Program-made: the position numbers and the translations under genes | Assembly: GCF_037975245.1 (NCBI RefSeq) | Contig: NC_092572.1 | Coordinates: 4,420,001 to 4,484,000, forward strand | Length of the DNA: 64,000 bases | Direction: 5' to 3' | From: Apostichopus japonicus | Taxonomy: Eukaryota > Echinodermata > Holothuroidea > Aspidochirotida > Stichopodidae | Notes under the pieces: generated by a model | The model's database searches: none | Seen by the model: the letters and a program-made list of their open reading frames with translations, nothing else | Told to the model about the DNA's origin: nothing | Shown: positions 12,010 to 64,000 of the stretch, one piece after another | Layout: the number at the start of each line of letters is the position of its first letter | Numbering within the stretch: position 1 is the stretch's first letter

Positions 12010-12333
12010 TCAGCCCGGGCGCTCAACTTTCAAACCATGCAGGGAGAGGCAAAATCATTTTCAAACCACGACCACCGCCAGGTTAGAACGTGCTTGTGAG
12101 AACCCTGCTCTACTAAAAGTGATATTCTAGTTACATTTAGGATTGCTCATTAAGATTTTCAAATCATCATCATTGTCATGGTTGCTACTTTTTCTGATGT
12201 CATCATCATTTGTGAATTATTGTTATTGTTGCCATGTTACATTTGCCAGTATCAATTTTGCTTATTGTTCCCTCAAAATTGCAGAGTAGAAGGAAGAAAT
12301 GTTAGCTAATAGTTATTATACCATATGTTCTTG
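12010..12333. other. No gene recognised
   Basis: A GCCCGGGCGC stretch near 12013 followed by AT-rich sequence; nothing identifiable. Confidence 0.4.
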
Positions 12334-28447: not shown

Positions 28448-28515
28448 ATATCATATAAGCAAGCATAGGTCATTACATCGCATGGCATCGTGTACCGTAC
28501 GGTCCGTGAAAGTTG

Positions 28516-29041
28516 CGCAGTCATCTCTCTCAGTATTTCAGTATTTCTCGAGGTGTAAGACAGGGTGGTCCACTCAGTCCTTACCTCTTTATTTTATGTT
28601 CAGAATTTCTCACATTCATGGTTAAAACAAGCTGTCGTATCAAGGGTATATCTATTAATAACTCTGAAATAAGAATTTCACAATATGCCGATGATACTGT
28701 TTTATTTTTAGATGGTTCACGCGCTTCTCTTTTAGAGGTTGTAAACATTCTTAATAATTTCTCTGCCGCTTCGGGTTTAAAAGTTAATTTCAGCAAATCA
28801 TACTTTTTTCCATTGGGTGCTATGGCTTCAAGGGTTCCCTGGTATTTTCATGAGTATGGTTTTAATGTTAATCTTGGTCCCGTGAAATATCTTGGTGTCA
28901 CATTTACTACAAAGAATGAAGATTTCTTTTCGTTGAATTATCTTCCCAAATTATCCAGGCTCAAACAGTTACTTGGGATGTGGTCAAAACGTGACTTAAC
29001 ACCAACTGGTAAAATAACTATAATTAAGAGTTTGGCCATTT
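28516..29041 (+). pseudogene. L1-group LINE reverse transcriptase fragment
   Basis: An open frame without stops carries the RT palm and thumb: RGVRQGGPLSPYLFIL, then SQYADDTVLFLDG (catalytic YADD), ASGLKVNFSKS, a VKYLGV block and GKITIIKSL. This order and wording fit L1/Tx1-group non-LTR elements. Both ends are missing. Upstream is SINE and microsatellite. Downstream the frame runs at about 29041 into the duplicated segment, just past the polyadenylation signal of the peptide gene. About 175 of the usual 900 or more ORF2 residues remain, so it is a dead fragment. Confidence 0.88.
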
Positions 29042-29093
29042 CACATGTATATATCATTCAAAACACACTGTTAGTAGATAGTTTTATCAGCTT

Positions 29094-29099
29094 TTTATT
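29094..29099 (-). promoter_or_regulatory. Polyadenylation signal AATAAA of peptide gene copy 1
   Basis: TTTATT on the plus strand, about 340 bases past the stop codon and conserved at 58875-58880. The similarity between the two duplicated segments ends about 55 bases beyond it. Confidence 0.5.
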
Positions 29100-29435
29100 C
29101 AAATCCAATCATAAACATGATCTGAGGTCGTCAAATCAAATAGTGTGATACAATACGCACTTCCCACTACCATTAACCGTTGGAGTTTAAATTACGGGAA
29201 CATTGTTGACTGCATGCATGGTCTGTGTGATTTTTCGTTCACTTTCAGGTAGCTGGAAGTATGAAGAGATCACCATTTTGCAAGAGAGAAGAAAAAACAG
29301 ACAATTGTAACAGTTAAATATCTAACTCGATTACCAGTACTATAAGATGATAAGAAATAGACATGAAATCAATCATATAAGCCTATACACTGAATACACA
29401 TGGCACTTACTTAATAAGAACTTCCCTTGTATTAT

Positions 29436-31803
29436 TCAATAATAACGCATGTCGTAACCTGTTTAGCAAAATATGCTTGCTTTTATTAATAAGGGGAAGA
29501 CGGGGGTTGGGGATGTTGGAAGGTGGAGGATATTTGTTGAGTGAAGTTTTCATGTCGTTTACAAATATTAATTACTGCTTAAATCTCAATTGGATTCTTT
29601 CATATGTTTAATCGATACTTACCCTTAAGTCCTCCGCTGGTACAGGCAAGGGTCTTATCTCCGACAATAACCCTGTTAGAAAATGGTATGGCCCCTCCAT
29701 TCTCTAAAGCGCACCATAATTGGGCTTCTAATGGTTAAATGACAATAAATAATATATAGGAATCACAAAAGGACATTAAAGTACAAGAATATCATGTAAC
29801 ACAATCATGATAATTCCAACATTTTACTTTTATTTTATATGGTTGAGAGGGTTTGGATGGAGGTGGGAGCACAAATGACCACACTTTTATTTGAGTTGTT
29901 AGAAGTCGAGCCTTAAGATAAGTCGGGTCATGGAGAAATTGAATCTAAATGAATTCTCTTGCAATTTTATGTCGAACTAGGTCTTCCGAAATCGGATCGA
30001 GTCTTTTAGAGAATATATTGTTTAAAGACAAGTTACAAAGCAGTTTCGACAGATAATTTCACAAAACGTGTTTCGTAAGGAACAAGAAGGAGAAAATCCA
30101 CATTTACTGTTTATAATCAGTATAGTACAGTTCCTGTTATGACGGATATTTCGTGAATGCAATCTCCAAATCACTCCAAATACCCTTTAAACTTTCGTCT
30201 CACTTCATAGAAACTAATTTGTACGGACCATTCGAATATTTCGGAATTTTTAATGTACAATTAATAGTAAGGACCTACGTGATCGCTTTTGTTTAACTTA
30301 TGAAGAGCTAGAAAATGTGTTTAAAGTATGGTAGTTCCCATGCAGAGACGGGCTTAAAGTCAGGCATTGACATTCCTTCCGAAATACCATGTTCATTGGC
30401 TTAAACCAGGGTTGTCCAACCTTTTGCAGAGGAGGGTCACATGGAATGGTTATGATGAAGGAGGGGCCACATGAACCCTACGCTCTATCTTTTGCCCGAA
30501 GCCAAGGGCAACAAAATGTGAGCACTGCGCGCGGAGCGCACTGATTTATTTTCCTTCCTGATAAAACAGATGAATAAAGTACAGCCGCCCCGCCTCCCTC
30601 CTCCGCTGAGATTGCCACACAAACTGACCTGTATGCAGTTTTTTGGACCCAGAAGGCTCGAATGATTGATTATATAGCTTCAAATTGTTATCAATAAATC
30701 TGCTCACTAAAATTTCGCACCATCTCTGGCGGGCCGGACGCAACCCTGCGGCGGGCCGGACTGTGGCCCGCGGGCAGTAGGTTGGACAACCCTGGCTTAA
30801 ACTAATGAAATATGTCCCATGACAACAATGTATCACGGAAGCAATATATAAAAAAGGTAGTTATACTTTCAATGTAAACATTTTGTTACAAATGGGTGAA
30901 CAAATATGAGTGATGTTCCACTTTTAAGCCACGAGACCCATCCCCTCCCCAACCACCCCATAAAAACTCCGTACTCTGTTTTCTCACTAACACAAATATG
31001 TAAATACTTTGCGTTTCCGTCATCCGTAAAACTCCACCTTGCGATAACAGCGAACAACATTTGCACCACCTATAGGGTGTTAATCATTTTTTTTTTAGAT
31101 TCTTTTAACTACGATATGATAGGCAGATAAATATCAGTACTTTTCTATGTGCTTTTAACAGTAAACATGTAAGATTAATCGTGTACAATATTGTACAATA
31201 TTCTAATCATATTGATAAATGAGATAAATAATGACATTAGACACATTTGTTTTCGTAAATCCTTCTTTGTTTAACCCTTTCAACATCTGAGCTTAAACAA
31301 TACAATGATAATGACTACATAGTCTAACACTCAAGACCTACAAATCCTCCGATGCAACACAAAATGCAACCACGGGACCACATAAGACTTGGTCTAATAT
31401 GATATGTTTACAATGTAGTTCAAAATTTCAAATAACAAAGGTGCATATTGTCATCCAAACTTGCTCTATTGCATTATGTTAAGTTAAAGAAAACTTTCTA
31501 TTTAATATAATCTAATCAATGGATTAACAGAAACATTTATGTCTTCACTGAGCTGTCGACGTCGTCATTAATTCAGTTTTTGAGGGACATTCCAAAGATC
31601 TCGCATACTTTTAAGGTGAATATCTCAACAGCAACCTTTTCAATTTTATTTAATTTATCTTGCCTTGAATATGACATGTCCCTTTAACATTCTACATGTA
31701 AACGAGAACTGGAAGTTAGGAATGTAATTGTTGTGGCCATCTTACCTGAGAGTAGAGCACACAGTGCTACGATTAATAGGATGAGAAACACATTTGTAGC
31801 CAT
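29436..31803 (-). CDS. Small secreted two-cysteine peptide, three exons (copy 1)
   Basis: Gene model read from splice sites; family unknown. Exon 1 (31746-31803) starts at ATG and encodes a signal peptide, MATNVFLILLIVALCALLS, ending at donor CAG|GTAAG. Exon 2 (29623-29727) has acceptor TTAG and donor GG|GTAAGT. Exon 3 (29436-29458) follows acceptor AACAG and ends in GYDMRYY and a stop. Phases agree (1 and 1), giving 186 nt and 61 residues. The mature part of about 42 residues has two cysteines (in WCALE and ACTSG), so one disulfide is possible. An acceptor (TTTCTAG at about 31832) precedes exon 1, implying a 5' untranslated exon further upstream. WCALE..GGAIP faintly recalls DM9-type repeats, but this is weak. 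The function is not known; the model is supported by the second copy. Confidence 0.65.
29728..31745 (-). other. Intron 1 of peptide gene copy 1
   Basis: Contains the hAT MITE 30407-30794 and two blocks missing from copy 2. An open frame at 30869-31069 is also open in copy 2, but its changes are mostly amino-acid altering and it has no start or splice context, so I read it as intron. Confidence 0.5.
30407..30794. mobile_element. hAT-type MITE, CAGGGTTGTCCAACC termini
   Basis: The 388-bp element begins CAGGGTTGTCCAACC and ends GGTTGGACAACCCTG. It has a perfect 8-bp duplication GCTTAAAC (30399-30406 and 30795-30802). The duplicated segment keeps the empty site, with a single GCTTAAAC at 59932-59939. 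The interior has the 'gcgggccgga.tgtggcccgc' pattern seen in many hAT derivatives. Confidence 0.95.
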
Positions 31804-31831
31804 TTTATCGTTTTTACGTGTCGTTTTTTTT

Positions 31832-34353
31832 CTAGAAATAAGAACAAAAGCAAACAAAATTAACCACAAATCAAATGAAAATTACTAGGCGCTTCCAATC
31901 AAATAAAGCGAATAAACAATCACAAATCGCGTATCATCGGGACACATCCATGCCAAAGCATCACTTTTTGGAGGAATGATTGTTTTCCTAAGACAATTGT
32001 AAAAAGAACAATGTATTATTATATATTAAATTCCCGAGCTTCCTGGTTGACCAGCCACTGGACTGTAACCTCCCACGCACGCACGCACCCATACCCACAC
32101 GAACAACACTGTCCAACTTCCTGGTAAGGCTGATTTGAATAAAAACAAATAAAACTGTACTTACAAATATCTTAAATCCGAGAATCATTACTCTATCCTG
32201 TCAGAACTCTTGAATTACGACAGAAGTTGATTATTGAAAGTACTTAAGACCTAGGAAGGTTTACTCGCCATCGTAAATTGAAGATTACATTCTGTTGGGT
32301 CTCGTATATGTGACAATTACGGAAACATTATAGCCCACCGGTTTGATTTGAATGAAGCGAAATGTGAATGATACAGTGTGGAAAAATGCCATCCTACGCA
32401 TGTATGAGAGAACTGGAGTATCAACTTGTTATTTCAAAGTTTTTGATAGTAGATATATACATTAATTGCATAGAAACATATAAAAGCGAGAATCGTCATC
32501 GAATTGTGATATCATGATGCGATTCTTCATTTAATCTTTGTACAAGTCTCATTTATGTCAGTGAAGTCATAAACACTTTATTGGTAATATTATAGACATT
32601 ATGAAACTTTAGAAAACTTAAGCCGCGTCGCTCAGAAATTTTGACTTATTGGTGACTGCTCACTGTGCTTGATGGCTTGCATATACTTGTGTGACGAGTG
32701 ACGACATTACCGCACATCTAGACATAACAATATTTAAGAATTACTGAATTTGACAAACTATTGATATATCAGCATACATAACCGTTTACTTTACAAAGAG
32801 ACGGAAATTAATTAAGCACTTTAAGAATATTTTGAAGAAGGATGTTCAACGCCTTCGATCCGATATAATTGACATATGATGATACGTTAATGATACCAGA
32901 AAGTTCAATTTCATCATAATGTATGCACTTACTTCATGAAAACGTTACATCAAAATAAATGGACCTAATGGAAATAACTCCTCTACTTTAGTTCACGTTA
33001 ATAGATCGAAACGGGACATCTACTTGTCAACCGACAAAGCTTGGAGCATGTTAATAACACTAAAGAACAACATATTAAGGCGTAACGTGACATAATAAGT
33101 ATCTTTTCGTGAAAAGTTTTCAACTTGAGAAAAACTGACTGTTCGTGACATTTACCGATTTTTTTCAGCTTACTTTTTTTTTTATAGTTTACGTACCTTT
33201 ATGTGTTTATATACGATACTGCAGGCGCAAATGAGACCACATTGTATATGATATGATGAGACCACGTATAGAATTTGATGTATATGCGATGTAAATGTAA
33301 ATTGCAAGAACATTTTAGTGACTTATTTCGCTATTAAGCATCACGGGTTATGATACAATCTGCCCTAAATATGGCACAACGTTTCAGCATAATTTAAATG
33401 TTACATTTAAAAGATGCTAAGGATCATGCAAAGAATGCCAAAACCCAAATGGGTAGTAGAAGTCTCTACAATTTATGTAGAAGTAAACTTTCTTTAAATT
33501 GAAATTAAGATGAAAGACATTGACTGATCATGGTACAGCTGCAGTCTTTGAAATTCTTGCACCAACGGATATGATTTTACCTCCAACTTACCTCTGATCT
33601 GGAAGTCTTCGCACTAGAAGTTTCTGGTAGAGAAATCATTTCAAACAGCTGCTTTTAAGGAATAGAACTACCAATGAGAGCTCTTTGAATTCCCATTGCC
33701 ACCAATCACAAGCTAGCACGCAACAAATTGAAGTATTCATCCACTAATATTTGAGCACATCAGGGTTTCGTGAAGCAGTAGACTAAGTGACGCAAACGCA
33801 AATAACAACAGAGAAATTGCTGGTATTAATTCAACTCTTCACTGGAATGAAAGCTAGAATTACAGATTGACATCTAGGCCTTGAAAAGAAAAGGACACGT
33901 GATGCGGAAAGGTTCACTTGGCAGATTCGTTGCACGTTCCACTGATGACGAAAACAACGTTCTACATAATATGCGGCATTGTGCCAAATCATAATATTTC
34001 TAATAAATCATCTCACCATAATTCTTTCTTCTTACTTCCTAGCCTGGTAAGTCATACCATAGAAACATTCCAATATGTAAACTGCTGAATATCTCATTGC
34101 ATTTGTGTGTTTTCTACAGTATTTTGTGAGTAAGAAAGTGTCCCATCAATTTGGGGGTTCTACTCCTTCTTTCCCGGATCCGCCGCACCTGTTAATGTCC
34201 CTTTCACCTGCTCATGTGAAATATATATAGTGTGAGAATGTAACACATTTTTCCTTTGAAGTCTTGGAAACGTTTAAAGAAGTTTACAACGTAACCGAGT
34301 CAATGCTAATAGAAACAATTAGTAATTTATCAAACACTTTTAGTCTCAAGCAA
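31832..34353. other. Upstream region of peptide gene copy 1
   Basis: No second gene is supported. The region is highly similar to 60686-63276. A candidate 5' exon end ('aagatattt|GTAAGT' on the minus strand, about 32165) has a good donor here but GTAATT in copy 2. A plus-strand CATATAAAAGCG at about 32476 (also about 61377) resembles a TATA box but has no convincing downstream frame. Confidence 0.4.
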
Positions 34354-35085
34354 CAGGGACGTAGCCAAGGGGGGGGGGTAGGGGAAGCAACTTCTCCCCC
34401 CTTTCAGTATCGAAAAAATGTTAACAAATGTTTTTTTTTTCTCTTTAGCATGGTACTTTTTCAGTGCTCTTTTGAACTTGAATACTTGTCAGCTCAGTTT
34501 CTTCGATTATAATCGTAGTAACATTCAGGCCTACTGATTCAGCTACTTAGTTTGGCAGATGTAATCAGCTAAATTTAGACAGTTGGACACTGCGTAATAA
34601 AATACATATTGCCTACCTAACCGCACTCGATGGGGTGTTACAGACCGTTTACACAACGACGTCGACAACGTTCGTTCTCATCCTTTGTATGATTCGTCCT
34701 AAGTTGTTGCACGAACAGTATGTTATGAAGCTAAGCTAGCAATCGTACTTGATACGCACTTCCTATCAATAATTATTACACTGCTAATACACTGCGATAA
34801 CGATATTTGTGTTTAGGCCACTGCACATCTGGCTGTCTTACAAAATATGAAAGTTTATATTGTCCATCAGTTCGCCAAATGTATTTAAGTCCATATATTG
34901 GACAATAAACAAGAATCAACAACTTTAAAAGAGCACTATGTTTGCTTTCTGATATATGTTAAAGAGTTCAAACGGGGAACAAAATCTGCTGATCATATGA
35001 TATCATATGATAATGATGAAACTGGCAAAACATTGCACCAGAGCGCATCTAAGGACCTTCAATTGTTCAAAATATCTCAAAGAGA
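34354..35085. mobile_element. hAT-type MITE, CAGGGACGTAGCC family (right end missing)
   Basis: Starts CAGGGACGTAGCCAAGG and is the same family as 40802-41668 (there inverted), sharing 'cattgcaccag..cgcatcta' and 'actgcgtaataaaatacat'. The right terminus is not present. The same insertion, with the same left flank, is in the second duplicated segment at about 63277, so it predates the duplication. Confidence 0.75.
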
Positions 35086-35377
35086 AGGGCAATTTTCTCA
35101 TGCTGTTCCTGGGAGACCTAAATTGAATGGTTCTAAATTTGGCTTAATTCACTCAATGTTTGCACTACATGTACTTCCATTCATGATCTTTAACATGCAA
35201 GCCACAATAAAAAAAACATGATTGATAGCATATCACAAAAGATGTTCTCAAATTGCTTTATTGTTGTTGGCACTTTTCCTGAAAGAGAACGGATTGATAT
35301 AGACTTTAATAGGAGTGAGCAACCTATATATATATAAATATATATATGTATGTATAAAAAAATAAACCCAAAAGTCG
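35086..35377. other. No gene recognised
   Basis: AT-rich sequence with a short TA tract near 35323-35350. Confidence 0.4.
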
Positions 35378-36306: not shown

Positions 36307-39300
36307 TGTAGAGTACTTGTTGTTTCAAATAAGGACACAGTTCAAGGCATTCGTTTACAGTTGAATACAGTACGGATAACTCGTTTTATTGATAACTTCT
36401 GGTAACAGACTTCGACGCCATGTTTACTCTGACTCTCTGTCGAACGCCAAGTGTGCAACACATTTTATTACGACACTACAATCCTCCTAACTTGTGGATT
36501 GAACTCAACAATACAAATGTTTGAATTGCTTTAAAGTATCAGAATAGGAACTGCATAAATAGCTTTTGTCGGTTACTGAAACAGTAATACTCTAGTATGT
36601 CAAATCTCAAGTCTAACAATATGGTAAATCTCAAAATGAACAATATGGTTAGTATATTGAACACATTGTGTCACTTGGAATGTCACAAAATGTGTTACAC
36701 AATAGGTTGCTTCAACTATGCAATACCATGAATACTGTCTGCTTATCAATTGTGCATATGTTCATGAAATATTCGCTATTGAAAGGTGGTCCGTTATCAG
36801 TACGGACTACTTCTGGAATACCGAACAATGCAAATATGCGATCCAAATGTGGGATAACCGCTTTACTAGAAGTGGATGTGAGAATTTCAACCACTGGGAA
36901 TCTGCTATAATCGTCGATGATGACAAGAAGATGCTCTCCGGTTGGAAGATCTGAGAAGTCTATGCTGACTTCTTTCCAAGGATGTGTTGGAAGTGCTGAC
37001 ATTTGGATAGGTTCACGTGTAGTTGAACTGCTTGTTGCTTGGCATGGAATACATTGACTGATCTTTTCCTCCACACGCTTGTCTATTCCAGGAAACCAAA
37101 CTTTTTCGCGAATCAGCTGTTTTGTGCGAACGACACCTTGGTGTCCTTGGTGTGCGATGGTGATGATGCGATCGCGAAGGATTGACGGAATCACAATTCT
37201 GTGATCACGGAGTAGCACTTTTCCATCTTTCGCTACGCTGAGCTCATTCTTTACGTTTTTGAAGCACTGCAGCTCTGGTGTAATGAAGTACCAGCTATTC
37301 CTTTCGACAGCTTTGATGCATGCTTGCAAGACAGGATCTGATGTGGTCGCTGCAACTATCTCATCCATGCTGATCGATTTGGGCACTGCGTTTTCAACGA
37401 TGAAGTTGATGTGCTCTTCTGCGTTTGGCTCAACGGTTGATGTGCTAGGTAACGGATGTCGCGACAAATAGTCGGCCGGGTTGGTTGCACCTGGTTGGTA
37501 TTCTAAAGAAAAATCATACTGCTGAAGGTGCAGCATCCATCTTTCTATTCTCGCTGGTGGAGATGAATTGGATCTGTTGAACAATGGCACTAGTGGCTTA
37601 TGGTCTGTGATGACCGTGAACTTGCTGCCATACAAGTACAGGTAGAAGTGTGTGATTCCCCACGTTACTGCCAGGGCTTCACGCTCGGTTTGTGAATACC
37701 GCTTCTCGACAGCTGTAAGTGAACGACTCGCTAATGCTACGATTTTGTTGCTTCGGTCACTGCCTTGTACTAGCATAGCACATAGCCCTACGGGACTAGC
37801 ATCTACAACGACTGTGGAATAAAGACGCGAGTCGAAGTATGCCATATGACAGTGCTGTGCTATTGCATGCTTGATGTCATTGAAGGATTTGGCATGACGC
37901 TCTTCCCATGACCATGGAACGCTCTGTCTGGTCAGATCACGAAGTGGTTCAGATAGTGATGCAAGGTTTGGAATGAATCTTGCACAGTAGTTTGCTAACC
38001 CAAGAAAGCTTCGGACTTCTTCCCGATTGCTAGGAGGTGGTGCCTCGATCAACGATTGGACTTTCGTGGGACTTGGTGATACGCCTGATGAGCTGAAGAT
38101 ATGCCCAAAGAATTCAACCGAAGATTTGTTGAACTCGCATTTATCGCCATTGAGAGTTAGGCTCTTCTCTCTTAGACGTTGCATGCACTTCACTAGCCGC
38201 TCGTTGTGTTCTTGTTGATTCTTGGCATATACCAATATGTCGTCGCTGATGTTAATCACGCCTTGAAGACCTGCCAGGGCTGACTGTATCAGATTTTGGA
38301 ACTGTTCCGCTCCGCTATTCACTCCGAAATTCAATCTCTTATACTGATACAAGCCAACATGGGTGGAGAAAACAGTGAGATAGCGTGATGCCTCGTCTAA
38401 TTCGATTTGGTGATATCCACTGTTTAGATCCAGCTTGGTGAATACTGTTGCCCCATTCAGCTTAGCTAATATGTCGTCAATGGTTGGAGTGACGTGCCGC
38501 TCTCTCGCGATAGCTTTGCTCACAGCTCGCATATCAACACAAATCCTGATTTTACCTGGTTGCTTTGGTTTAGGCACAACTCGAATTGGAGAGACCCATG
38601 GTGTAGGCGTACTATGCACAGGCTCGATGATATCCAATTCTTGTAAGCGTTTCAGTTCAGCTTCGACATGTTGTCTGACGTGGAAAGGTATCCTGCGATG
38701 CGGCTGAGTAACAGGAGTGACGGACTGATCCACGTGTAGTTTGCATGTGACGCCTGCTAGCTTGCCTAGTCCAACGAACCGATCACTGAATTCGTCGATG
38801 ACCGACGGTGCTGCATGAACATTGTATGTAACAGCGATCATGTGGAGCTCTTTCGCAGTGTTCAGACGTAGCAGAGTGGGACCACTGTGCTCCGTAATGA
38901 AGAATATATCTCTTAGCATCTGCGCTTTGTGACGTACAAGCAGAGAGATTTTTCCAAGAACCTCAATGGGACTGTTGGCACCAAATGCATAGACTTGTTT
39001 GCCTGTAGGTTCGAGTAGTGATTGTTCTGTACAGATTGTGTTCAGAGTTTCTCGACTCATTATGTTCACTGACGTACCTGTGTCAATGACAGCTGTAGTC
39101 TTAACATCATTGATAATCACGGATACCTTGAGTAGTTGATTACTCTCATCTGATGGACCTATGGCAAATAGATAGTCCTCGTTATTTGACTCACCTTGCA
39201 TTGCTTGGAGAGATGGTTGTGAGTGTGAGTGTTGTGTTGTCTGTTCTACAAGGTTAACCTCTGCTTGTTGTTTCAGCTTGGTTTTGCACACTTTTGCAAA

Positions 39301-40201
39301 GTGATTTTGCTTTTTGCAGAACAAGCAGGTTTTTCCTTGTGCTGGACATGGATGATCAGTATGAGGGTATTTGTCACCACAGTTACGGCAGATCTGTGAC
39401 TTTGAGTGCTGCTGTTGTTTGAATTTAGCAGGTTTCTGACGGTTTTGACGTTCGTGCTTGACGTAGTGCACGTCAGAAATGTCACTCATAGTGCTCTTTG
39501 CAATCTCACTGGCATGCGCAGTGGCTGCTTCAGCTGCTCGGACAATTGTGATGGCTTGAGTTAGGGTCAAGTGTGCTTCACGAAGGAGGCGTTGACGAAT
39601 GTTAGCATTTTTCATGCCTAGAATTATCCTGTCCCTTATGAGAGATTCTGTCAATGTGTCAAATTCACATGTTTCTGCTAATGACTTGAGAGATGTAACA
39701 AAGCTCTCAAACGATTCACCCTCTCTTTGTACTCTCGTGTTAAATATGTACCGTTCATATGTAGTATTAGCATGTCCCTTACAATGCACTTCAAACTGAT
39801 CGATTACCTTCTGATATGTCTTTGCGTCAGCTTCGTCAGCCCACGTAAACGTGTTGTATAGGTCGACCGCTGGCTTGTCTCGTGTGGCTATCCCCGTTGC
39901 AAGTTCGAAGTTTGTGAATGCCTGTTTAAATTTCTTGAAGCTTGTTGCAAGACTTGACGAATCTATCTCGAACGGTGGAGGCGGTGGAATCGTGAATGTG
40001 GCCATCGCAAATTATCCTCGTCGCCAATGTAGAGTACTTGTTGTTTCAAATAAGGACACAGTTCAAGGCATTCGTTTACAGTTGAATACAATACGGATAA
40101 CTCGTTTTATTGATAACTTCTGGTAACAGACTTCGACGCCATGTTTACTCTGACTCTCTGTCGAACGCCAAGTGTGCAACACATTTTATTACGACACTAC
40201 A
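36307..40201 (-). mobile_element. Ty3/gypsy LTR retrotransposon, full structure, integrase truncated
   Basis: Direct repeats of 174 bp at 36307-36480 and 40028-40201 begin TG and end CA, differing at one base by eye. A 5-bp target duplication CATAT flanks them (36302-36306 and 40202-40206). Read on the minus strand, the 5' LTR is at 40028-40201. It is followed at once by a primer-binding-like TTGGCGACGAGGATAA and then the gag-pol start at 40005. A purine stretch AGGAGGAT abuts the 3' LTR at 36481. The internal region is 3547 bp. The compact layout with a single gag-pol frame fits the Mag/SURL branch. Near-identical LTRs mean recent insertion. Confidence 0.95.
36712..40005 (-). CDS. Gag-Pol polyprotein of Ty3/gypsy element (integrase C terminus lost)
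   Basis: Single frame of 1097 residues. Gag is at about 1-275 with a CCHC zinc knuckle CLFCKKQNHFAKVC (about 227-240). Protease has VIDTGTS (Asp near 308). RT runs about 440-640 with TKLDLNSGYHQIEL and the catalytic ISDD at about 586-589. RNase H is about 710-830 (YSQTEREALAV, ITDHKPL). Integrase has the HHCC finger (HQGHQGVVRTKQL...CIPC) and core aspartates near 1016 (SIDFSD) and 1070 (RTDNGPPF). The usual downstream catalytic glutamate region and C-terminal domain are absent: the frame leaves family sequence after NSE and stops. The integrase therefore lacks part of its catalytic triad, probably through an internal deletion. It would replicate as cDNA but could not integrate unaided. Confidence 0.93.
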   Translation of the reverse strand: MATFTIPPPPPFEIDSSSLATSFKKFKQAFTNFELATGIATRDKPAVDLYNTFTWADEADAKTYQKVIDQFEVHCKGHANTTYERYIFNTRVQREGESFESFVTSLKSLAETCEFDTLTESLIRDRIILGMKNANIRQRLLREAHLTLTQAITIVRAAEAATAHASEIAKSTMSDISDVHYVKHERQNRQKPAKFKQQQHSKSQICRNCGDKYPHTDHPCPAQGKTCLFCKKQNHFAKVCKTKLKQQAEVNLVEQTTQHSHSQPSLQAMQGESNNEDYLFAIGPSDESNQLLKVSVIINDVKTTAVIDTGTSVNIMSRETLNTICTEQSLLEPTGKQVYAFGANSPIEVLGKISLLVRHKAQMLRDIFFITEHSGPTLLRLNTAKELHMIAVTYNVHAAPSVIDEFSDRFVGLGKLAGVTCKLHVDQSVTPVTQPHRRIPFHVRQHVEAELKRLQELDIIEPVHSTPTPWVSPIRVVPKPKQPGKIRICVDMRAVSKAIARERHVTPTIDDILAKLNGATVFTKLDLNSGYHQIELDEASRYLTVFSTHVGLYQYKRLNFGVNSGAEQFQNLIQSALAGLQGVINISDDILVYAKNQQEHNERLVKCMQRLREKSLTLNGDKCEFNKSSVEFFGHIFSSSGVSPSPTKVQSLIEAPPPSNREEVRSFLGLANYCARFIPNLASLSEPLRDLTRQSVPWSWEERHAKSFNDIKHAIAQHCHMAYFDSRLYSTVVVDASPVGLCAMLVQGSDRSNKIVALASRSLTAVEKRYSQTEREALAVTWGITHFYLYLYGSKFTVITDHKPLVPLFNRSNSSPPARIERWMLHLQQYDFSLEYQPGATNPADYLSRHPLPSTSTVEPNAEEHINFIVENAVPKSISMDEIVAATTSDPVLQACIKAVERNSWYFITPELQCFKNVKNELSVAKDGKVLLRDHRIVIPSILRDRIITIAHQGHQGVVRTKQLIREKVWFPGIDKRVEEKISQCIPCQATSSSTTREPIQMSALPTHPWKEVSIDFSDLPTGEHLLVIIDDYSRFPVVEILTSTSSKAVIPHLDRIFALFGIPEVVRTDNGPPFNSEYFMNICTIDKQTVFMVLHS

Positions 40202-40689: not shown

Positions 40690-42085
40690 GGGTAATAGAT
40701 TAGGAACCGGGTAGTATCGCGAAATCAAGTAAAACGAGTGTCTAGAAATAATGCCAGCATAAAATTACGGCAATAGTCAACTGATTTAAGTGAACCACTA
40801 ACAGCGACGCAGCCAGGAATTTGAAAGGTGGAGAGGGGGCGCATTTTGCGGTTGATGTGGGGGAGGGTTTAAGGGAGGGGTGTCCCCCTCCCTTTGAGAT
40901 ATTTTTGAACAATTGAAGGTCCTTAGATGCGATCTGGTGCAATGTTTTGCCAGTTTCATCATTATCATATGATATCATACTATCAGCAGATTTTGTTTCC
41001 TGTTTGAATTCTTTTATATGTTCTTTTACATATTATATCAGAAAGACAAACATAGTGCTTTATACATTCTTTTCCAGTAGGATGATTCTTGTTTATTGTC
41101 CAATGTCTGAACTTTAATGCATTTGACGAACTTAACTGGTGGACAATATAAACTTTCATAGTTTGTAAGACAGCCAGATGTGCAGTGGCTAAAAAAACAA
41201 ATATCGTTATCGCAATGTGTTAGCAGTGTAATCATTATTTATAGGAAGCGCGTATCACGTATACGATTGCTATCTTAGCTTCATAACATGCTGTTGCAAC
41301 AACTTAGGACGAATCATAGAAAGGATGAGAACGAACGATGTCGACATCATTCTGCATACGGTTCGTGACACTCCAATCGAGTGCCATTAGGTAGGCAACA
41401 TGTATTTTATTACGCAGTGGCCAACTGTAGGCTTGCAATAGGCTATATGCTAAATTAAGCTAAATGCATCTGCCAAACTAAGTTAGCGGAATCAGTAGGC
41501 CTGAATGTTACTACGATTATAATCAAGTTAAAGGAGCTGACGAGTATTCAAGATCAAAAGAGCAATGACCAAATACCATGCTAAAAAAAAAAACAGTTTT
41601 CAACATTTTGTTGTCACTGAAAGGGGGGCAGTCGCTCCCCTGCTCCAACCCCCCTGGCTACGTTCCTGACCATTGCATGTTGCGTGAATATACCGTGAAT
41701 GTCGAAATCAAGTACAACGAGTGTCTAGACATAATGGGAGCATAAAAACACTGCACTTGTCACTGATTACAGTAACCATTAAATTCTGTGTGCATATGCC
41801 ATGAATGTCGTAAATCAAGTAAAACGAGTGTCTAGAAAAAATGCCAGCATAAAAATACTGCACCTGTCAACTGATTTAAGTGAAGCATTAAATTCTGTGT
41901 GCATATGCCATGAACGTCGGAAATCAAGTAAAACGAGTGCCTAGAAAATATGCCAGCATAAACATACGGCACTAGTCACTGAATTAAGTGAACCGTTAAA
42001 TTCTGCCTGCATATGCCATGAATGTCGTAAATCAAGTAAAACGAGTGTCTAGTAATAATGCCAGCATAAAAATACTGCATAAACA
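40690..42085. repeat. Satellite array, 108-bp unit, about 5 copies, split by a MITE
   Basis: AATCAAGTA(A/C)AACGAG recurs at about 40723, 41706, 41813, 41922 and 42030. Adjacent spacings are 107-109. The 983-bp gap between the first two becomes exactly 108 once the 867-bp MITE and an 8-bp duplication are removed. Units also share 'tctaga.a.aatgccagcat' and 'ttaaattctgtgtgcatatg'. The same family lies inside the transposon at 23587-27019. Confidence 0.9.
40802..41668. mobile_element. hAT-type MITE, complete copy of the CAGGGACGTAGCC family
   Basis: Left end CAGCGACGCAGCCAGG, right end CCTGGCTACGTTCCTG. Length 867 bp. Flanking octamers ACCACTAA and ACCATTGC are decayed copies of the satellite sequence ACCATTAA, and the satellite period confirms an 8-bp duplication. 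The interior is the inverse of 34354-35085. Confidence 0.88.
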
Positions 42086-48323: not shown

Positions 48324-49822
48324 CTACTTCTTTTTCAACCGTTTACGGTTCAATGGCTTGGGGTTCCCATGGCGACACAAAGAGATAAGCTCGGATCTCC
48401 TATTGATTGTGTCACCTCTTGTGCGTAGGATTTCCAGTTTTTCTTCTATACAAAGGTTGCAGTTGCCCGATTCTCGCTGGTAAGTGTCGGACTGCCTAAT
48501 TATGCTCCATTTAACCGAATAATCTACCTTTTGTCTCTTCAATCCCCATATGTGTTTAGATAACTCAGACTCCTTCTCGTATTTACTATTTCTGAAAGAC
48601 TTAGTGTGGTTATTGTATCTAGATTTGAAATCCCCCCCGGTAAGCCCAACATATGACCTGGTGGTGCCATCGTCACCGGAAGTAACTGTGGCCTTATACA
48701 CCACGGCACTGACAAGGCACTCACCCTGTAGGGGGCAAGAGGCTCTATCTCTGCAGTTGCAGGTTCTTATGGGGGTTTCTTGGTTGAATTTTTTCATTAC
48801 TTTAGCATTATGGGATTTTATGATTGAATTCATATTTTTCATGCAACTGTAACTCACTTTTAAAGTGTTCCTGTTGAATATTTTCCTCAGCTTTGCCCCG
48901 GGAGGGAAGTGCTTGTCGACCAGTTTGAGAAACTGGGCGCCAACGTTAGATTTCACATTTTTACTGTAAGGTGGGTTGAACCATGTTATCTTCCTGCTCC
49001 GGTTCCTTCTTTTCCTCTTAGGCTGTTCCTTCTCACCCTCCTGGGGTTGGGTGTACGAAATGGTTGCGTCGAACCCGCTACTCTTCAATGCGTCATTATA
49101 CATGCGTGCGTTGTTGTTGAAGGCGTCCTGGTCTGACGAAAGCGATGATATCCGTTTCTCTATTGCAGGGGGATGTGCTTGATTATGGCTGGCGGGTGGT
49201 TTGACTTCACATTTATGTACAGTGGTTCGTCATTGGGTTTTCGGTAGGGCTGGTGCATTCCGGTGTCTAGGTTCAGGTTCACGTCAAGGAAGTTAACTGA
49301 TTTTTTGCCTGTTTCCACCGTGATTTTGAGTCCGCAAGCTTGGAATGCTTTGATGATCTCCTTTCTGGTGCGGTCCTCTTCGCTTCCGGAGTGGCTTTGC
49401 ATCACTGCGAGCCCGTCATCTCAATACAACCCAACGCTGTCCACGTTAAGTTTCGTTCTGAGCTCGTTCAAGATGAAGAGCCCAACGAGCTCACACACTT
49501 CCGCTCCATCGAACGCCCCCATCGAGACATCAAATTCTTTGTACGCCTCCCTTTTTACCCAAGGGGTGCCTTTGTTGTCATACAATAAAGATCTCCTCGC
49601 GTGTTTAATAGCGGCGTACTCAATGTCCCGGATGTTATCGTATGTTTTGGCCCATGTGAGGCATTTACTCAGCAAATCCTCTGAGATGGAAGGGTAAAAG
49701 TCCACTATGTCAAATATTAGAAATGTAAGCTTGCTTTTCTCGTTTAGGCCATTGAACCATTTGAGCACTGAGGCGGTATTTCTCCATTGGTTCACTGATA
49801 TTTTGGCTCTAATGTTATTATT
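48324..49822 (-). pseudogene. Penelope-like element: RT palm to GIY-YIG endonuclease, broken twice
   Basis: Minus-strand frame. RT motifs are NQWRNTASVLKWF, DIVDFYPSISEDLL and GAFDGAEVCELVGL, followed by the catalytic box. There the expected arginine of YRDD is a TGA stop (49421-49423), followed in frame by DDGLAVM. A frameshift near 49172 moves to the frame that ends at 48324. That frame has a basic linker (KRKRRNRSRK), a cysteine cluster (CNCRDRASCPLQGEC) and a GIY-YIG-type nuclease: VVYKATV, SYVGLTGGDFKSRYNNH, SELSKHIW and IEEKLEIL. The C terminus is complete. The N-terminal RT half is replaced by a TA microsatellite at about 49825. Not functional as it stands. Confidence 0.9.
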
Positions 49823-57905: not shown

Positions 57906-58822
57906 GTATATAGCCTATATGCCTGTGCCGTAACTAAATCTTTCCACAATTCCTGTTGATTTATTAATATTAAGGTTGCTCAAACTTCTTGAATATTAGC
58001 TCTTACTTACCATGCAGTACGCCGATACTTGAAGATATATGAATTCGATATTAACATACGATCTCATTAACCGTTGTTAAATCTCGTTGAGTATTTAATC
58101 CAGCATTCCATTCTTAGGGATCATACACAGTTTCCCTTTACAATAACTTTCACTTTCAATTGGTTTATTTTTTTCACTTTTGTCAGTATTCATTAATGCT
58201 GAGTGTTTATTATTCATTCAACTTATGACGCGCCTGTAAATAACACACTGCAATATATTACTCTCGAACTCCAGCTACCAACAGAGTAGGTTTACTGATC
58301 GCCCAGTTCTTAATCAGAGCTGCAATTTTACTCAAATCAAAGGGTTCCACTATCAGCCCGATACGTCATATTTGAAGCAAACTTCGTCCGTGTCGATGCA
58401 TTTCATTATCCCAACGCTGTGAAGGCTTTTAAAGACGATAGTAGCTTATAATAACTGATTATTAATTATTAATAAAGTAACCTATTTTAGCATTTTGCTG
58501 TTAATCAATAAAATCAATTTTAAGAAGACCAAAACAGTTTTTTTTTTACGAAACACATTTCCCGAAGCATTACACAAATTCGACAAACATCCAAATATGA
58601 TCATGTACCTCAAGATATGTCAAGCACGAGCAATCCCCGTATTTAGCTATGGGCATGTTTGTGGAGGGAGCGGGCCTGGAAGTTGTTTGGAAACCTGTCA
58701 GCAGAATCTATCCGGGCAATGACATTACTTGTTGGTCAGCTAATGTAAGGCCACGTGCAATCACAAAGCCGTGGTGCTAGCTGTCAGACATAAGCATTCC
58801 GTATCTATGATTACATCTGAAT
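57905..58822. other. No gene recognised
   Basis: Single-copy-looking sequence. An open frame at 58495-58722 has no recognisable domain and no splice context. Confidence 0.4.
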
Positions 58823-58874
58823 GTCACGTGTATAGATCATTGAAAACACACTGTTAGTAGATAGTTTTATCAGC

Positions 58875-58880
58875 TTTATT
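58875..58880 (-). promoter_or_regulatory. Polyadenylation signal AATAAA of peptide gene copy 2
   Basis: TTTATT on the plus strand at the position equivalent to 29094-29099; the surrounding T-run is two bases shorter but the signal is kept. Confidence 0.5.
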
Positions 58881-59215
58881 CAAATCCAATCATAAACATG
58901 ATCAGAGGTCGTCAAATCAAATAGTGTGATACAATACGCACTTCCCACTACCATTAACCGTTGGAGTTTAAATAACGAGAACATTGTTCCCTGCATGCAT
59001 GGTCTGTATGATTTTTCGTTCACTTTTAGATAGCTGGAAGTATGAAGAGATCGCCATTTTGCAAGAGAGAAGAAAAACAGACAATTGTAACAGTTAAATA
59101 TCTAACTCGATTACCGGTGCTATCAGATGATAAGAAATAGACATGAAAACAAACATATAAGCCTATACACTGAATACACATGGCACTTACTTAATAAGAA
59201 CTTCTCTTGTATTAT

Positions 59216-60685
59216 TCAGTAATAACGCATGTCGTAACCTGTTTAGCAAAATATGCTTGCTTTTATTAATAAGGGGAAGACGGGGGGGGGGTGGGGATGT
59301 TGGAAGGTGGAGGATATTGGTTGAGTGAAGTTTTCATGTTGTTTACAAATATTAATTACTGCTTAAATCTCAATTGGATTCTTCCATATGTTAATCGATA
59401 CTTACCCGTAAGACCTGTGCTGGAACACGCATAGCGCAGATTTCCGACCAAAACAACGTCATTATTCGGTATGGCCCCTCCAGCCTCTAAAGCGCACCAG
59501 TAGACGGCTTCTAAAGGTTAAATTACAATAAATAATATACATGAATCACAAAAGGAGACAAGTTACAAAGCAATTTTACAGATAATTTCACAAAACGTGT
59601 TTCGTAAGGAACATGAAGGAGAAAATCCACCTTTACTGTTTATCATAAGTATATATATTATAGTACCTGTTATGACGGATATTTCTTGAATGCAATCTCC
59701 AAGTCAATCCAAATACCCTTTAAACTTTCGTCTCACTTCATAGAAACTAATTTGTACGGACCATTCGAATATTTCGGAATTCTTAATGTACAATAAATAG
59801 TATGGCGCTACGTGAACGCTTTTGTATAACTTATGAAGAGCTAGAAAATATGATTAAAGTATTGTAGTTCCCATGCAGAGACGGGCTTAAAGTCAGGCAT
59901 CGACAGTCCTTCCGAAATACCATGTCCATTGGCTTAAACTAATGAAATATGTCCCATGACAATATGTATCACGGAAGTAATATATAAAAAATGAAGTTAT
60001 ACTTTCAATGTAAACATTTTGTTACAAATGGGTGAACAAATATGAATGATGTTCCACTTTTAGGCCACGAGACCCATCCCCTCCCCAACCACCCCATAAA
60101 AACTATGTACTGTGTTTTCTCACTAACACAAATATGTAAACACTTTGCGTTTCCGTGATCCGTGATACTCCATCTTGCGATAACAGCGAACAACATTTGC
60201 AACACCTATAGTGTGTTAATCATTTTTTTTTCAGATTCTTTTAAACTATGATATGATAGGCAAAATGTAATTCTTCAAAATTTCAAATAACAAAGGTGCA
60301 TATTGTCATTCAAACTTGCTCTGTTGCATTATGTTAAGTTAAAGAAAACGTTTTAGTTAATTTTATCTAATCAATGGATTAACAGAAACATTTATGTCTT
60401 CACCGAGCTTCCGACGTCGTCATTAATTCAGTTTTTAAGGGACATTCCAAAGATCTAGCATACTTTTAAGGTGAATATCTCAACAGCAACTTTTTCAATT
60501 TTATTTCATTCATCTTGCATTGAATATGACATGTCCCTTTAACATTCTACATGTTAACGAGAATATACAACTGGAAGTTAGGTATGTAATTGTTGTGGCC
60601 ATCTTACCTGAGAGTAGAGCACACAGTGCTACGATTAATAGGATGAGAAACACATTTGTAGCCGTTTTTACGTGTCGTTTTTTTT
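59216..60685 (-). CDS. Small secreted two-cysteine peptide (copy 2), start codon lost
   Basis: Same three-exon layout as copy 1: exon 1 about 60608-60685, exon 2 59406-59510, exon 3 59216-59238, with every splice site and phase kept. The signal-peptide codons (NVFLILLIVALCALLS) are identical to copy 1. Exon 2 keeps both cysteines (WCALE, YACSS) and GGAIP, but 15 of 35 codons change the residue and only about 3 change silently. Exon 3 again gives GYDMRYY and stop, with one silent change. An 8-base deletion just before the GCT codon removes the ATG used in copy 1. It is therefore either a pseudogene or starts in an upstream exon that I cannot place. No other lesion is seen. Confidence 0.55.
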
Positions 60686-63276
60686 CTAGAAATAAGAACA
60701 AAAGCAAACAAAATTAACCACAAATCAAATGAAAATTACTAGGCGCTTCCAATCAAATAAAGCGAATAAACAATCACAAAATATGACATCGCGTTTCATC
60801 GGGAGACATCCATGCGAAAGCATCACTTTTTGGAGGAATGATTGTTTTCCTAAGACAATTGTAAAAAGAACAATGTATTATTATATATTAAGTTCCCGAG
60901 CTTCCTGGTTGACCAGCCACTGGACTGTAACCTCCCACGCACGCACGCACCCATACCCACACGAACAACACTGTCCAACTTCCTGGTAAGGCTGTTTTGA
61001 ATAAAAACAAATAAAAATGTATCGAATAATGTCATGTAAGACATACTGCCATTTACTAATTACAAATATCTTCAATCCGAGAATCATTACTCTATCCTGC
61101 CAGAACTCTTGAATTACGACAGAAGTTGATTATTGAAAGTACTTAAGCCCTAGGAAGGTTTACTCGCCATCGTAAATTGAAGATTACATTCTGTTGGGTC
61201 TCGTATATGTGACCCTTACGGAAACATTATAGCCCACCGGTTTGATTTGAATGAAGCGAAATGTGAATGATACAGTGTGGAAAAATGCCATCCTACGCAT
61301 GTATGAGAGAACTGGAGTATCAACTTGTTATTTCAAAGTTTTTGATAGTAGATATATACATTAATTGCATAGAAACATATAAAAGCGAGAATCGTCATCG
61401 AATTGTGATATCATGATGCGATTCTTCATTCAATCTTTGTACAAGTCTCACCTATGTCATTGAAGTCATAAACACTTTATTGGTAATATTATAGACATTA
61501 TGAAATTTTAGAAAACTTTAGCCGCGTCGCTCAGAAATTTTGACTTATTGGTGACTGCTCACTGTACTTGATGGCTTGCACATACTTGTTTGACGAGTGA
61601 CGACATTACCGCACATCTAGACATAACACTATTTAAGAATTACTGAATTTGACAAACTATTGATATATCAGCATAAATAACCGTTTACTTTACAAAGACA
61701 CGGAAATTAATTAAGCACTTTAAGAATATTTTGAAGAAGGATGTTCAACGCCTTCGATCCGATATAATTGACATATGATGATACGTTAATGATACCAGAA
61801 AGTTCAATTTCATCATAATGTATGTACTTACTTCATGAAAACGTTACATCAAAATAAATGGACCTAATGGAAATAACTCCTCTACTTTAGTTCACGTTAA
61901 TAGATCGAAACGGGACATCTACTTGTCAACCGACAAAGCTTGGAGCAGGTTAATAACACTAAAGAACAACATATTAAGGCGTAACGTGACATAATAAGTA
62001 TCTTTTCGTGAAAAGTTTTCAACTTGAGAAAAACTGACTGTTCGTGACATTTACCGATTTTTTTCAGCTTACTTTTTTTTTTTATAGTTTACGTACCTTT
62101 ATGTGTTTATATACGATACTGCAGGCGCAAATGAGATCTCCTTGTACTTGATATGATGAGAACACGTATAGAATATGATGTATATGCGATGTAAATGTAA
62201 ATTGCAAGAAAATCAAATTTCAGTGAATTATTCTGCTACTAAGCATCACGGGTTATGATACAATCTGCCCTAAATATGGTACAACGTTTCAGCATAATTT
62301 AAATGTTACACTTAAAAGATGCTAAGGATCATGCAAAGAATGCCAAAACCCAATGGGTAGTAGACGTCTCTACTATTTATGTAGAAATAAACTTTCTTTA
62401 AATTTAAATTAAGATGAAAGACATTGACTGATCACCGGTACAGCTGCAGTCTTTGAAATTCTTGCACCAACGGATATGATTTAACCTCCACCTTACCTCT
62501 GATCTGGAAGTCTTCGCACTGGAAGTTTCTGGTAGAGAAATCATTTCAAACAGCTGCTTTTAAGGAATAGAACCACCAATAAGATCTCTTTGAATTCCCA
62601 TTGCCACCAATCACAAGCTAGCACGCAACAAATTGAAGTAATCATCCTCTAGTATTTGAGCACAGCAGGGTTTCTTGAAGCAGTAGACTAAGTGACGCCA
62701 ACGCAAATAACAACAGAGAAATTTGCTGGTATTAATTCAACTATTCATTGGAATGAAAGCTTGAATTACAGATTGACATCTAGGCCTTGAAAAGAAAAGG
62801 GCACGTGATGCGGAAAGATTCACTTGGCAGATTCTTTGCACTTTCCACTGATGACGAAAACAACGTTCTACTTAATATGTAAACCGCTGAATGTCGCATT
62901 GTGCCAAATCACAATATTTCTAATAAATCATCTCACCATAATTCTTTCTTCTTACTTCCTAGCCTGGTAAGTCATACCACAGAAAAATTCCAATATGTAA
63001 ACTGCTGAATGTCTCATTGCATTTGTGTGTTTTCTATGGTATTTTGTGAGTAAGAAAGTGTCACATCAGTTTGGGGGTTCTACTCCTTCTTTCCCGGATC
63101 CGCCGCACCTGTTAATGTCCCTTTCACCTGCTCATGTGAAATATATATAGTGTAAGAATGTAACACATTTTTCCCTTGATGTCCTGGAAACATTTAAAGA
63201 AGTTTACAACGTAACCAAGTCAATGTTAATAGAAACAATTAGAAATGTATCAAACTCTTTTAGTCTCAAGCAACAG
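60686..63276. other. Upstream region of peptide gene copy 2
   Basis: Near-identical to 31832-34353 apart from small indels, including a block at about 61016-61062 unique to this copy. No additional gene is supported. Confidence 0.45.
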
Positions 63277-64000
63277 GGACGTAGCCAGGTGGGGGGGGGG
63301 GGCAGGGGGAGCAACTTCTCCCCCTTTCAGTATAATAACAATGTTAAAAACTGTTGTTTTTTCAGCATGGTATTTTTGGCAGTGCGCTTTTGATCTTGAA
63401 TACTCGTCAGCTCAGTTTATTCGATCATAATCGTAGTAACATTCAGGCCTACTGATTCAGCTACTAACTTAGTTTGGCAGATGCAATTAGCTAAATTTAT
63501 CCTTTAGCTTATTACAAGCCTACAGTTGGACACTGCGTAATAAAATACATATTGCCTACCTAACCGCACTCGATGGAGTGTCACAAATCGTATGCACAAC
63601 GACGTCGACAACGTTCGTTCTCATCCTTTCTATGTTTCATCCTAAGTTGTTGCACGAACAGCATGTTATGGAGCTAAGCTAGCAATCGTACTTGATACGC
63701 ACTTCCTATAAATAATTATTACACTGCTAGTACACTGCAATAACGATATTTGTGTTTAGACCACTGCACATCTGGCTGTCTTACAAAATATGAAAGTTTA
63801 TATTGTCCATCAGTTATTGGACAATAAACAAGAATCAAAAATGGTAAAAGAGCACTATGTTTGCTTTCTGATATAATATGTAAAAGAATTCAAACGGGGG
63901 AAAAAATCTGCTGACCAAATGATATCATATGATAATGATGAAACTGGCAAAACATTGCACCAGATCGCATCTAAGGACCTTCAATTGTTCAAAATTCTCA

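Follow-up and report, generated by a model that had tools for sequence, protein, structure and literature searches.

Here, we describe a family of genes for putatively secreted peptides in the sea cucumber Apostichopus japonicus, in which the divergence between copies peaks in a single exon that is predicted to encode most of the mature peptide. Diversifying selection on this exon is supported by comparison with the introns as well as by codon site models. The genes probably constitute a small birth-and-death family in which positive selection on the mature-peptide exon would be combined with exchange between copies. Two members, designated copy A and copy B, are located in the window that was analyzed, a stretch of 64,000 nucleotides of chromosome C12 (C12:4420001-4484000), and further members were sought in the complete genome (671.6 Mb, 35 contigs).

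Structure of the two genes in the window

Both genes lie on the minus strand, and each is part of a larger duplicated unit (Table 1). The sequence of copy A reads as a previous inspection without database searches (the sequence-only reading) had proposed, with three exons in the expected places, matching phases, and GT..AG introns that together yield a frame of 61 residues (MATNVFLILLIVALCALLSEAQLWCALENGGAIPFSNRVIVGDKTLACTSGGLKGYDMRYY).

Table 1. Coordinates of copies A and B in the window, and location of the other family members on chromosome C12.
Feature	Position	Strand	Remarks
Copy A, whole gene	31803-29436	-	
Copy A exon 1, ATG and signal peptide MATNVFLILLIVALCALLS	31746..31803	-	58 bases, ends in phase 1; frame, splice sites
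Copy A exon 2, hypervariable mature-peptide exon	29623..29727	-	105 bases; cysteines at codons 6 and 29
Copy A exon 3, short tail GYDMRYY and stop	29436..29458	-	frame, splice sites
Copy A counterpart of upstream exon	33532..33639	-	in-frame stop; tblastn, sequence comparison
Copy A duplicated unit	29038..35079	-	self-comparison; matches 58821-64000
Copy B, whole gene	60665-59216	-	
Copy B exon 1, signal-peptide codons as in A	60608..60665	-	first codon ACG, not ATG; alignment
Copy B exon 2	59406..59510	-	alignment; included in predicted protein P0001
Copy B exon 3	59216..59238	-	alignment
Copy B upstream exon	62437..62544	-	coding start in P0001 (MISLPETSS...); tblastn, sequence comparison
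Copy B duplicated unit	58821..64000	-	truncated by window end; self-comparison
L009	C12 4.31 Mb		exon-2 copy
L010, L011, L012	C12 2.42, 2.47, 2.51 Mb		exon-2 copies
L013, L014, L015	C12 8.59, 8.60, 8.61 Mb		exon-2 copies
L016	C12 18.87 Mb		exon-2 copy
L017	C12 5.76 Mb		exon-2 copy
L018	C12 13.94 Mb		exon 1 only, altered donor, no exon 2 seen

Divergence between copies A and B

In exon 2, 31 of the 105 bases differ between A and B, compared with none of 56 aligned bases in exon 1, 68 of 1085 aligned bases in intron 1 (approximately 6%), 4 of 163 in intron 2, and 1 of 23 in exon 3. Within the first 34 codons of exon 2, 14 residues are changed and three codons differ silently; codon 35, which encodes K in one copy and T in the other, brings the number of residue changes to 15. 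These counts equal those obtained by eye in the sequence-only reading (about 31 differences in 105 nt, about 15 residue changes, and about 3 silent codons), and the one-base difference that it reported in exon 3 was likewise recovered, the tail being the same in A and B. When the duplicated unit was scanned over 5064 aligned columns, the 105 columns of exon 2 contained 31 differences, as opposed to 15 in the next separate window of that size and a mean of 4.9 outside (binomial P = 6e-17, given the rate of 0.046 outside exon 2). The observed pattern is real, and the claim of sharp divergence limited to the mature-peptide exon is thereby confirmed.

Two other claims of the same reading stood in part. 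The signal-peptide codons are identical as stated, but copy B lacks the ATG, owing to a deletion of 8 bases relative to A that had been overlooked. The introns were described as near-identical, which applies to intron 2 but less so to intron 1, where, next to the overall divergence given above, the alignment contains three segments of A, each approximately 250 to 390 bases long, that are absent from copy B, and four differences in the 45 bases immediately 5' of exon 2. When A is compared with L010, windows of intron 1 close to exon 2 contain up to 10 differences in 50 bases.

A gene family on chromosome C12

Genome searches with the peptides of A, L013, and L010 gave 14, 17, and 17 listed matches, respectively, and all listed matches are on C12. 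They represent at least 11 exon-2 copies, i.e., nine in addition to A and B, and one exon-1 relic (L018); the copy number is a lower bound, as the genome search scores the best candidates only. Exon 1 is present in 10 of the 11 copies, nine of which have the ATG, and was not seen in approximately 6 kb upstream of L017. It is free of base differences among A, L009, L010, and L011, and also in B over the 56 aligned bases.

Exon 2 is open as far as codon 34 in all 11 copies. Residues E1, A2, W5, C6, G11, G12, I14, C29, and G33 are invariant in the eight sequences aligned, which extends to the family the conservation of both cysteines noted earlier for A and B, and L011, L014, and L015 agree with their near-copies at C6 and C29. 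The tails are more variable. GYDMRYY is common to A, B, and L009; in L010 and L011, an additional base in exon 2 (106 bases) places exon 3 in another frame with a longer tail that ends in NNTREVLIR; L013 to L015 have a stop codon inside exon 2; and the tail of L012 reads GLV followed by a stop if the nearest AG serves as acceptor, or CYDVDYY if the aligned place is used. Exon 2 is identical in L013, L014, and L015, and nearly identical in L010 and L011, and both sets are recent duplicates.

Protein searches in a collection of approximately 5.8 billion proteins (E <= 1), one of them with the copy A peptide, returned P0001 as the only match. At that sensitivity, therefore, the collection contains no separate protein for 10 of the 11 copies.

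Selection on the mature-peptide exon

The main site models were run on a close group of four sequences (A, B, L009, and L010) and 34 codons. The trees, site models, and rate estimates did not include L011 (a near-copy of L010), L014, or L015 (both with the exon 2 of L013), the latter two of which are also missing from the pair table, and L016 and L017 were used in the subgroup comparison only.

In the six close pairs, dN ranged from 0.21 to 0.51, dS from 0.08 to 0.26, and intron K from 0.02 to 0.07, with values of 0.453, 0.176, and 0.061, respectively, for A versus B. The ratio of dN to intron K was 6.7 to 9.3, with one-sided P values of 1.9e-8 to 6.8e-14 in tests that share branches and are, therefore, not independent. 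The plain pairwise test of dN>dS was marginal (one-sided P 0.045 to 0.18), and dS was above intron K in all six pairs, significantly so in A-L010 only (P = 0.009, with 0.059 to 0.12 in the others). Maximum likelihood estimation with branch lengths fixed by 1154 intron sites of the four close copies placed the replacement rate in exon 2 at 9.1 times the intron rate (LRT 135.6 versus 1x), and the silent rate at 2.5 times the intron rate, which is not significantly different from 1 (p = 0.062). Moreover, parsimony required at least 39 residue changes versus 8.1 expected under neutrality, and in the A-B pair the excess persisted when each changed codon was counted once (P = 0.004).

Codon site models point the same way. 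In self-written scripts, which are not a published package and assume a single tree that exchange between copies breaks, the four copies gave an omega of 3.6 under M0 (p = 0.0011), an LRT of 35.8 for M7/M8 (p = 1.7e-8), and an LRT of 34.6 for M8a/M8, with 45% of the codons in a class with omega 16 under M8. Codons 3, 4, 10, 16, 17, 19, 21, 24-28, 31, and 32 had P>0.8 for selection. With six copies, the whole-exon omega was 1.26, not different from 1, and M7/M8 remained significant (p = 5.5e-8). The alternation of constraint and change is apparent around positions 19-22, where V or I occupies position 20 in every tabulated copy and position 22 in those of the close group, and positions 19 and 21 vary; the strand that these four positions form in both predicted models may have one face buried and the other exposed.

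A second subgroup shows the same pattern. Between L013 and L016, exon 2 has 11 differences in 101 bases versus 4 in 228 of the adjoining intron (P = 6e-4), with seven replacement codons and one silent codon, and between L013 and L017 the counts are 26 in 101 versus 20 in 221 (P = 1e-4). The excess in exon 2 is weak between L012 and L013 (31 in 101 versus 45 in 223, P = 0.028; 13 replacement and 5 silent codons). Diversifying selection on the mature-peptide exon is thus supported by the intron comparison and the site models rather than by pairwise dN>dS, and the evolutionary half of the sequence-only reading, i.e., a fast mature exon, has been strengthened by the added copies, the site models, and the intron-calibrated test.

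Two neutral explanations were weighed against these data. The copies could be decaying duplicates under relaxed constraint, with B a pseudogene and the exon 2 differences due to drift, which would agree with the missing ATG of copy B, the failure to see an exon 1 in some 6 kb at L017, and the solitary exon 1 with altered donor at L018. Nevertheless, this is very improbable, as drift is unable to surpass the intron rate ninefold, and exon 2 has stayed open to codon 34 with both cysteines retained in every copy; drift as the cause of the exon 2 divergence is contradicted by the replacement rate itself. Exon-targeted hypermutation or a hot spot of multi-base mutation, suggested by the two or three base differences in many of the changed codons, is hardly credible either. 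A common rate for silent and replacement changes is rejected in the intron-calibrated analysis of the four close copies (p = 0.0013), which eliminates local hypermutation acting alone, and M2a is still better than M1a when two- and three-base changes are allowed in a single step (p = 1.3e-5). Furthermore, the close copies agree in every base of codons 5-9 and 11-14 but differ in the neighboring codons 3, 4, 10, and 16-19, and hypermutation or a foreign segment should have altered the nine unchanged codons as well.

Exchange between copies

L012 has a mosaic relation to A. The divergence between the two amounts to 11% in the upstream DNA, 13% for intron 1, and 9% in the downstream DNA, whereas it reaches 46% in exon 2 and, over 137 aligned bases of a gapped alignment, 28% in intron 2. 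In trees constructed per segment, L012 groups with L013 throughout, and the branch to the A group measures 0.03 to 0.05 in the flanks and intron 1, 0.32 in intron 2, and 0.62 in exon 2. This looks like an older stretch of exon 2 and intron 2 within younger, exchanged flanks. Selection on residues cannot explain the divergence of intron 2, because it is non-coding, and an older stretch is expected to raise dS, which, when L012 is paired with members of the A group, amounts to 0.8 to 1.2 at an intron K of 0.16 to 0.18 (for A-L012, 0.81 versus 0.16, P = 2.7e-5). As silent divergence of exon 2 exceeds that of the introns in some pairs, point selection is not the whole story. The mosaic and the raised dS of L012 argue for what seem to be two processes, namely point selection among the close copies and exchange of segments from one group to another, and count against a reading in terms of a fast exon alone. 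Conversion from an unrelated sequence, named as an alternative in the sequence-only reading, fits the A-B peak poorly, given the nine base-identical codons amid variable ones, but exchange between copies as such is indicated at L012.

Upstream, L009 matches copy A (window positions 32161-34937) at 98% identity, compared with 89-93% in pieces of the gene body. This contrast is another sign of exchange, in this case between copies approximately 137 kb apart.

The main rival explanation is that the lineages of exon 2 are old and held apart by selection, while flanks and introns have been homogenized by conversion or recombination, so that the exon would be old rather than fast, an argument that has been made for MHC exons. 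The proximity of L012 to A in intron 1, upstream, and downstream and its distance in intron 2 and exon 2, a dS several times the intron K in between-group pairs, and the A-L009 contrast agree with this explanation. We consider it unlikely, although it deserves to be taken seriously, since intron 2 differs by only 2.5-5.5% within A, B, L009, and L010, the nine codons are base-identical in that group, and an old exon ought to bear silent changes, whereas the silent rate is not significantly above that of the introns. The part of intron 1 that adjoins exon 2 is less uniform in this respect (4 of 45 bases differ in A-B, and up to 10 in 50 in A-L010).

Start codon of copy B and the upstream exon

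P0001 is an A. japonicus 'uncharacterized protein' (isoform X2), a prediction that represents the public-annotation model of copy B. The window encodes its whole sequence apart from one or two C-terminal residues, which a different exon supplies. From its start in the upstream exon the frame continues into the old signal peptide, which has become internal to the protein. In B the upstream exon is followed by a GT, which is missing from the corresponding site of A, L009, and L012. An in-frame stop interrupts the equivalent of this exon in A and L009, and L012 has no such stop. Because of these differences, the upstream exon is probably 5' untranslated in the copies other than B, and the same comparison makes the present function of copy B uncertain; after the loss of its usual start, this copy may be dead or altered. 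The end of P0001 (LTAI) is compatible with an acceptor approximately 205 bases downstream of the start of exon 3, so that the tails may be alternative.

Other elements in the window

Several putative mobile elements and repeats accompany the two genes. Intron 1 of copy A contains an insertion of approximately 390 bases (30406-30793) with inverted ends (CAGGGTTGTCCAACC...) and CTTAAAC on both sides, which is missing from B and, by BLAST coordinates, from L009-L012; by eye, it looks like a non-autonomous hAT element. An open frame with a reverse-transcriptase match, LINE-like by eye, is located at 28510-29148 and overlaps the copy A unit at its 3' end. On the minus strand at 36307-40201 lies a Ty3/gypsy-like element with an open frame of 1099 residues (RT, RNase H, and integrase) that stops inside the integrase core match; its 174-base terminal repeats are 99.4% identical, and it is, therefore, probably a recent insertion. 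The sequence at 40885-41668 repeats, in inverted orientation, the part of the duplicated unit that lies farthest upstream (34354-35089, 63274-64000), with 82-91% identity by pieces and no gene exons. Tandem arrays occur at 8669-9956 and 10666-12010, their repeat units measuring approximately 255-270 and 673 bases, and an open frame of 301 residues at 48324-49229 resembles, by eye, the GIY-YIG end of a Penelope-like element, with no Pfam match.

Comparison with known families and folds

Conotoxin genes are described as having conserved introns and signal exons and a mature exon with raised dN and dS, recombination between copies has been proposed for them (PMC3862624), and the cysteines of conotoxin superfamilies are conserved (PMC3823881). 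The A. japonicus family shares the conserved signal exon and introns, the fast mature exon, and the kept cysteines, but has no propeptide exon, only two cysteines, and no sequence relation that could be found, and it belongs to a sea cucumber, an animal not known for a venom tissue. For viperid three-finger toxins, accelerated segment switch in exons (ASSET) is described as switching in exons and not in introns (PMC2474615), and the present family is similar in its exon-not-intron change, its three exons and two introns, and its kept cysteines. Unlike these toxins, to which it is unrelated in sequence, scattered codon changes dominate among close copies, and one exon bears nearly all of them. 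The likeness to both toxin groups is, by analogy, one of mode of evolution and not of kinship.

In A. japonicus itself, a PSP94-like tandem family that is induced during gut regeneration has been reported, with 11 published sequences, and is described as cysteine-containing and without homologues elsewhere (PMC5638244); like the present family, it consists of tandem duplicates. The two families are set apart by Pfam model and cysteine count: a six-frame genome search with PF05825 (PSP94) gave three matches, none of them on C12, the best of which scored 19.4 bits versus a cut-off of 22, and PF05825 did not match any of the family peptides scanned. The PSP94 or beta-microseminoprotein pattern comprises ten cysteines instead of the two in the mature peptide here, and both grounds speak against identity with these proteins.

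Fibronectin type I domains contain four cysteines in two disulphides. Relative to these and von Willebrand C domains, the family has two cysteines and lacks a C-x-C pair, and the best of the Pfam fibronectin type I models (PF23003) scored 16.5 bits versus a cut-off of 27. Structure comparison gave a Z of 3.9, tied with a von Willebrand factor fragment, for models of which one of five was confident and that of copy B was poor; a fibronectin-type-I-like fold is a weak lead. Within reach of the searches the family is new. The evolutionary kind to which it belongs is already known: replacement above the neutral rate, a conserved signal peptide, and conserved cysteines make it a well-supported hypervariable peptide gene family, in terms of kind and not of homology.

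Proposed mechanism and role

In the mechanism that we propose, the gene would begin with an upstream exon that is probably untranslated, followed by a signal-peptide exon that stays frozen and one 105-base exon that codes for nearly the whole mature peptide, and would end in a short, changeable tail. If cleaved after SEA, a guessed site, the mature peptide would be about 33 to 50 residues long, with two conserved cysteines. Following duplication, positive selection would repeatedly alter about 14 of its positions, while W5, C6, G11, G12, I14, C29, G33, and the signal peptide would be retained, and recombination or gene conversion among copies would reshuffle or homogenize the flanks. The peptides are predicted to be secreted and to adopt a small, disulphide-closed beta fold with the variable positions exposed.

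The peptides could well be defense or recognition ligands, a role that we propose tentatively, and in which the binding face would follow a changing partner, e.g., microbes. In its functional half, the sequence-only reading had suggested that the family may be of the defense or venom type. At E <= 1, the search of approximately 5.8 billion proteins gave no homologue that ties the family to defense. A role as gamete recognition or sperm-attractant peptides, with diversity driven by sperm-egg conflict or species recognition, would suit small, taxon-restricted, positively selected peptides with predicted secretion, and starfish sperm-activating peptides are of similar size and have one disulphide. 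It is, however, improbable, as several diverged paralogues in one genome would suit defense better than a single recognition ligand.

A more specific elaboration of the defense or recognition role combines these elements into a holothurian-specific repertoire of recognition peptides, each with one disulphide and built on a reduced scaffold of fibronectin-type-I-like fold, in which selection would rewrite the exposed positions of a single variable exon, and exchange between copies dispersed over 16 Mb of C12 would shuffle this exon between otherwise uniform genes. Such a repertoire would be innate, with a logic comparable to that of other diversified echinoderm immune families. Taken jointly, this is a speculative reading, and rather unlikely to hold in full.

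For ten of the 11 copies the protein collection searched has no separate entry, and the entry of the eleventh is 'uncharacterized'. With one fast exon and near-uniform flanks, the family constitutes a clean natural experiment in an animal that is studied for evisceration and regeneration. The tissue in which the peptides occur and the partner that they meet would reveal the driving pressure, and may uncover a layer of holothurian defense or recognition that is invisible to homology searches.
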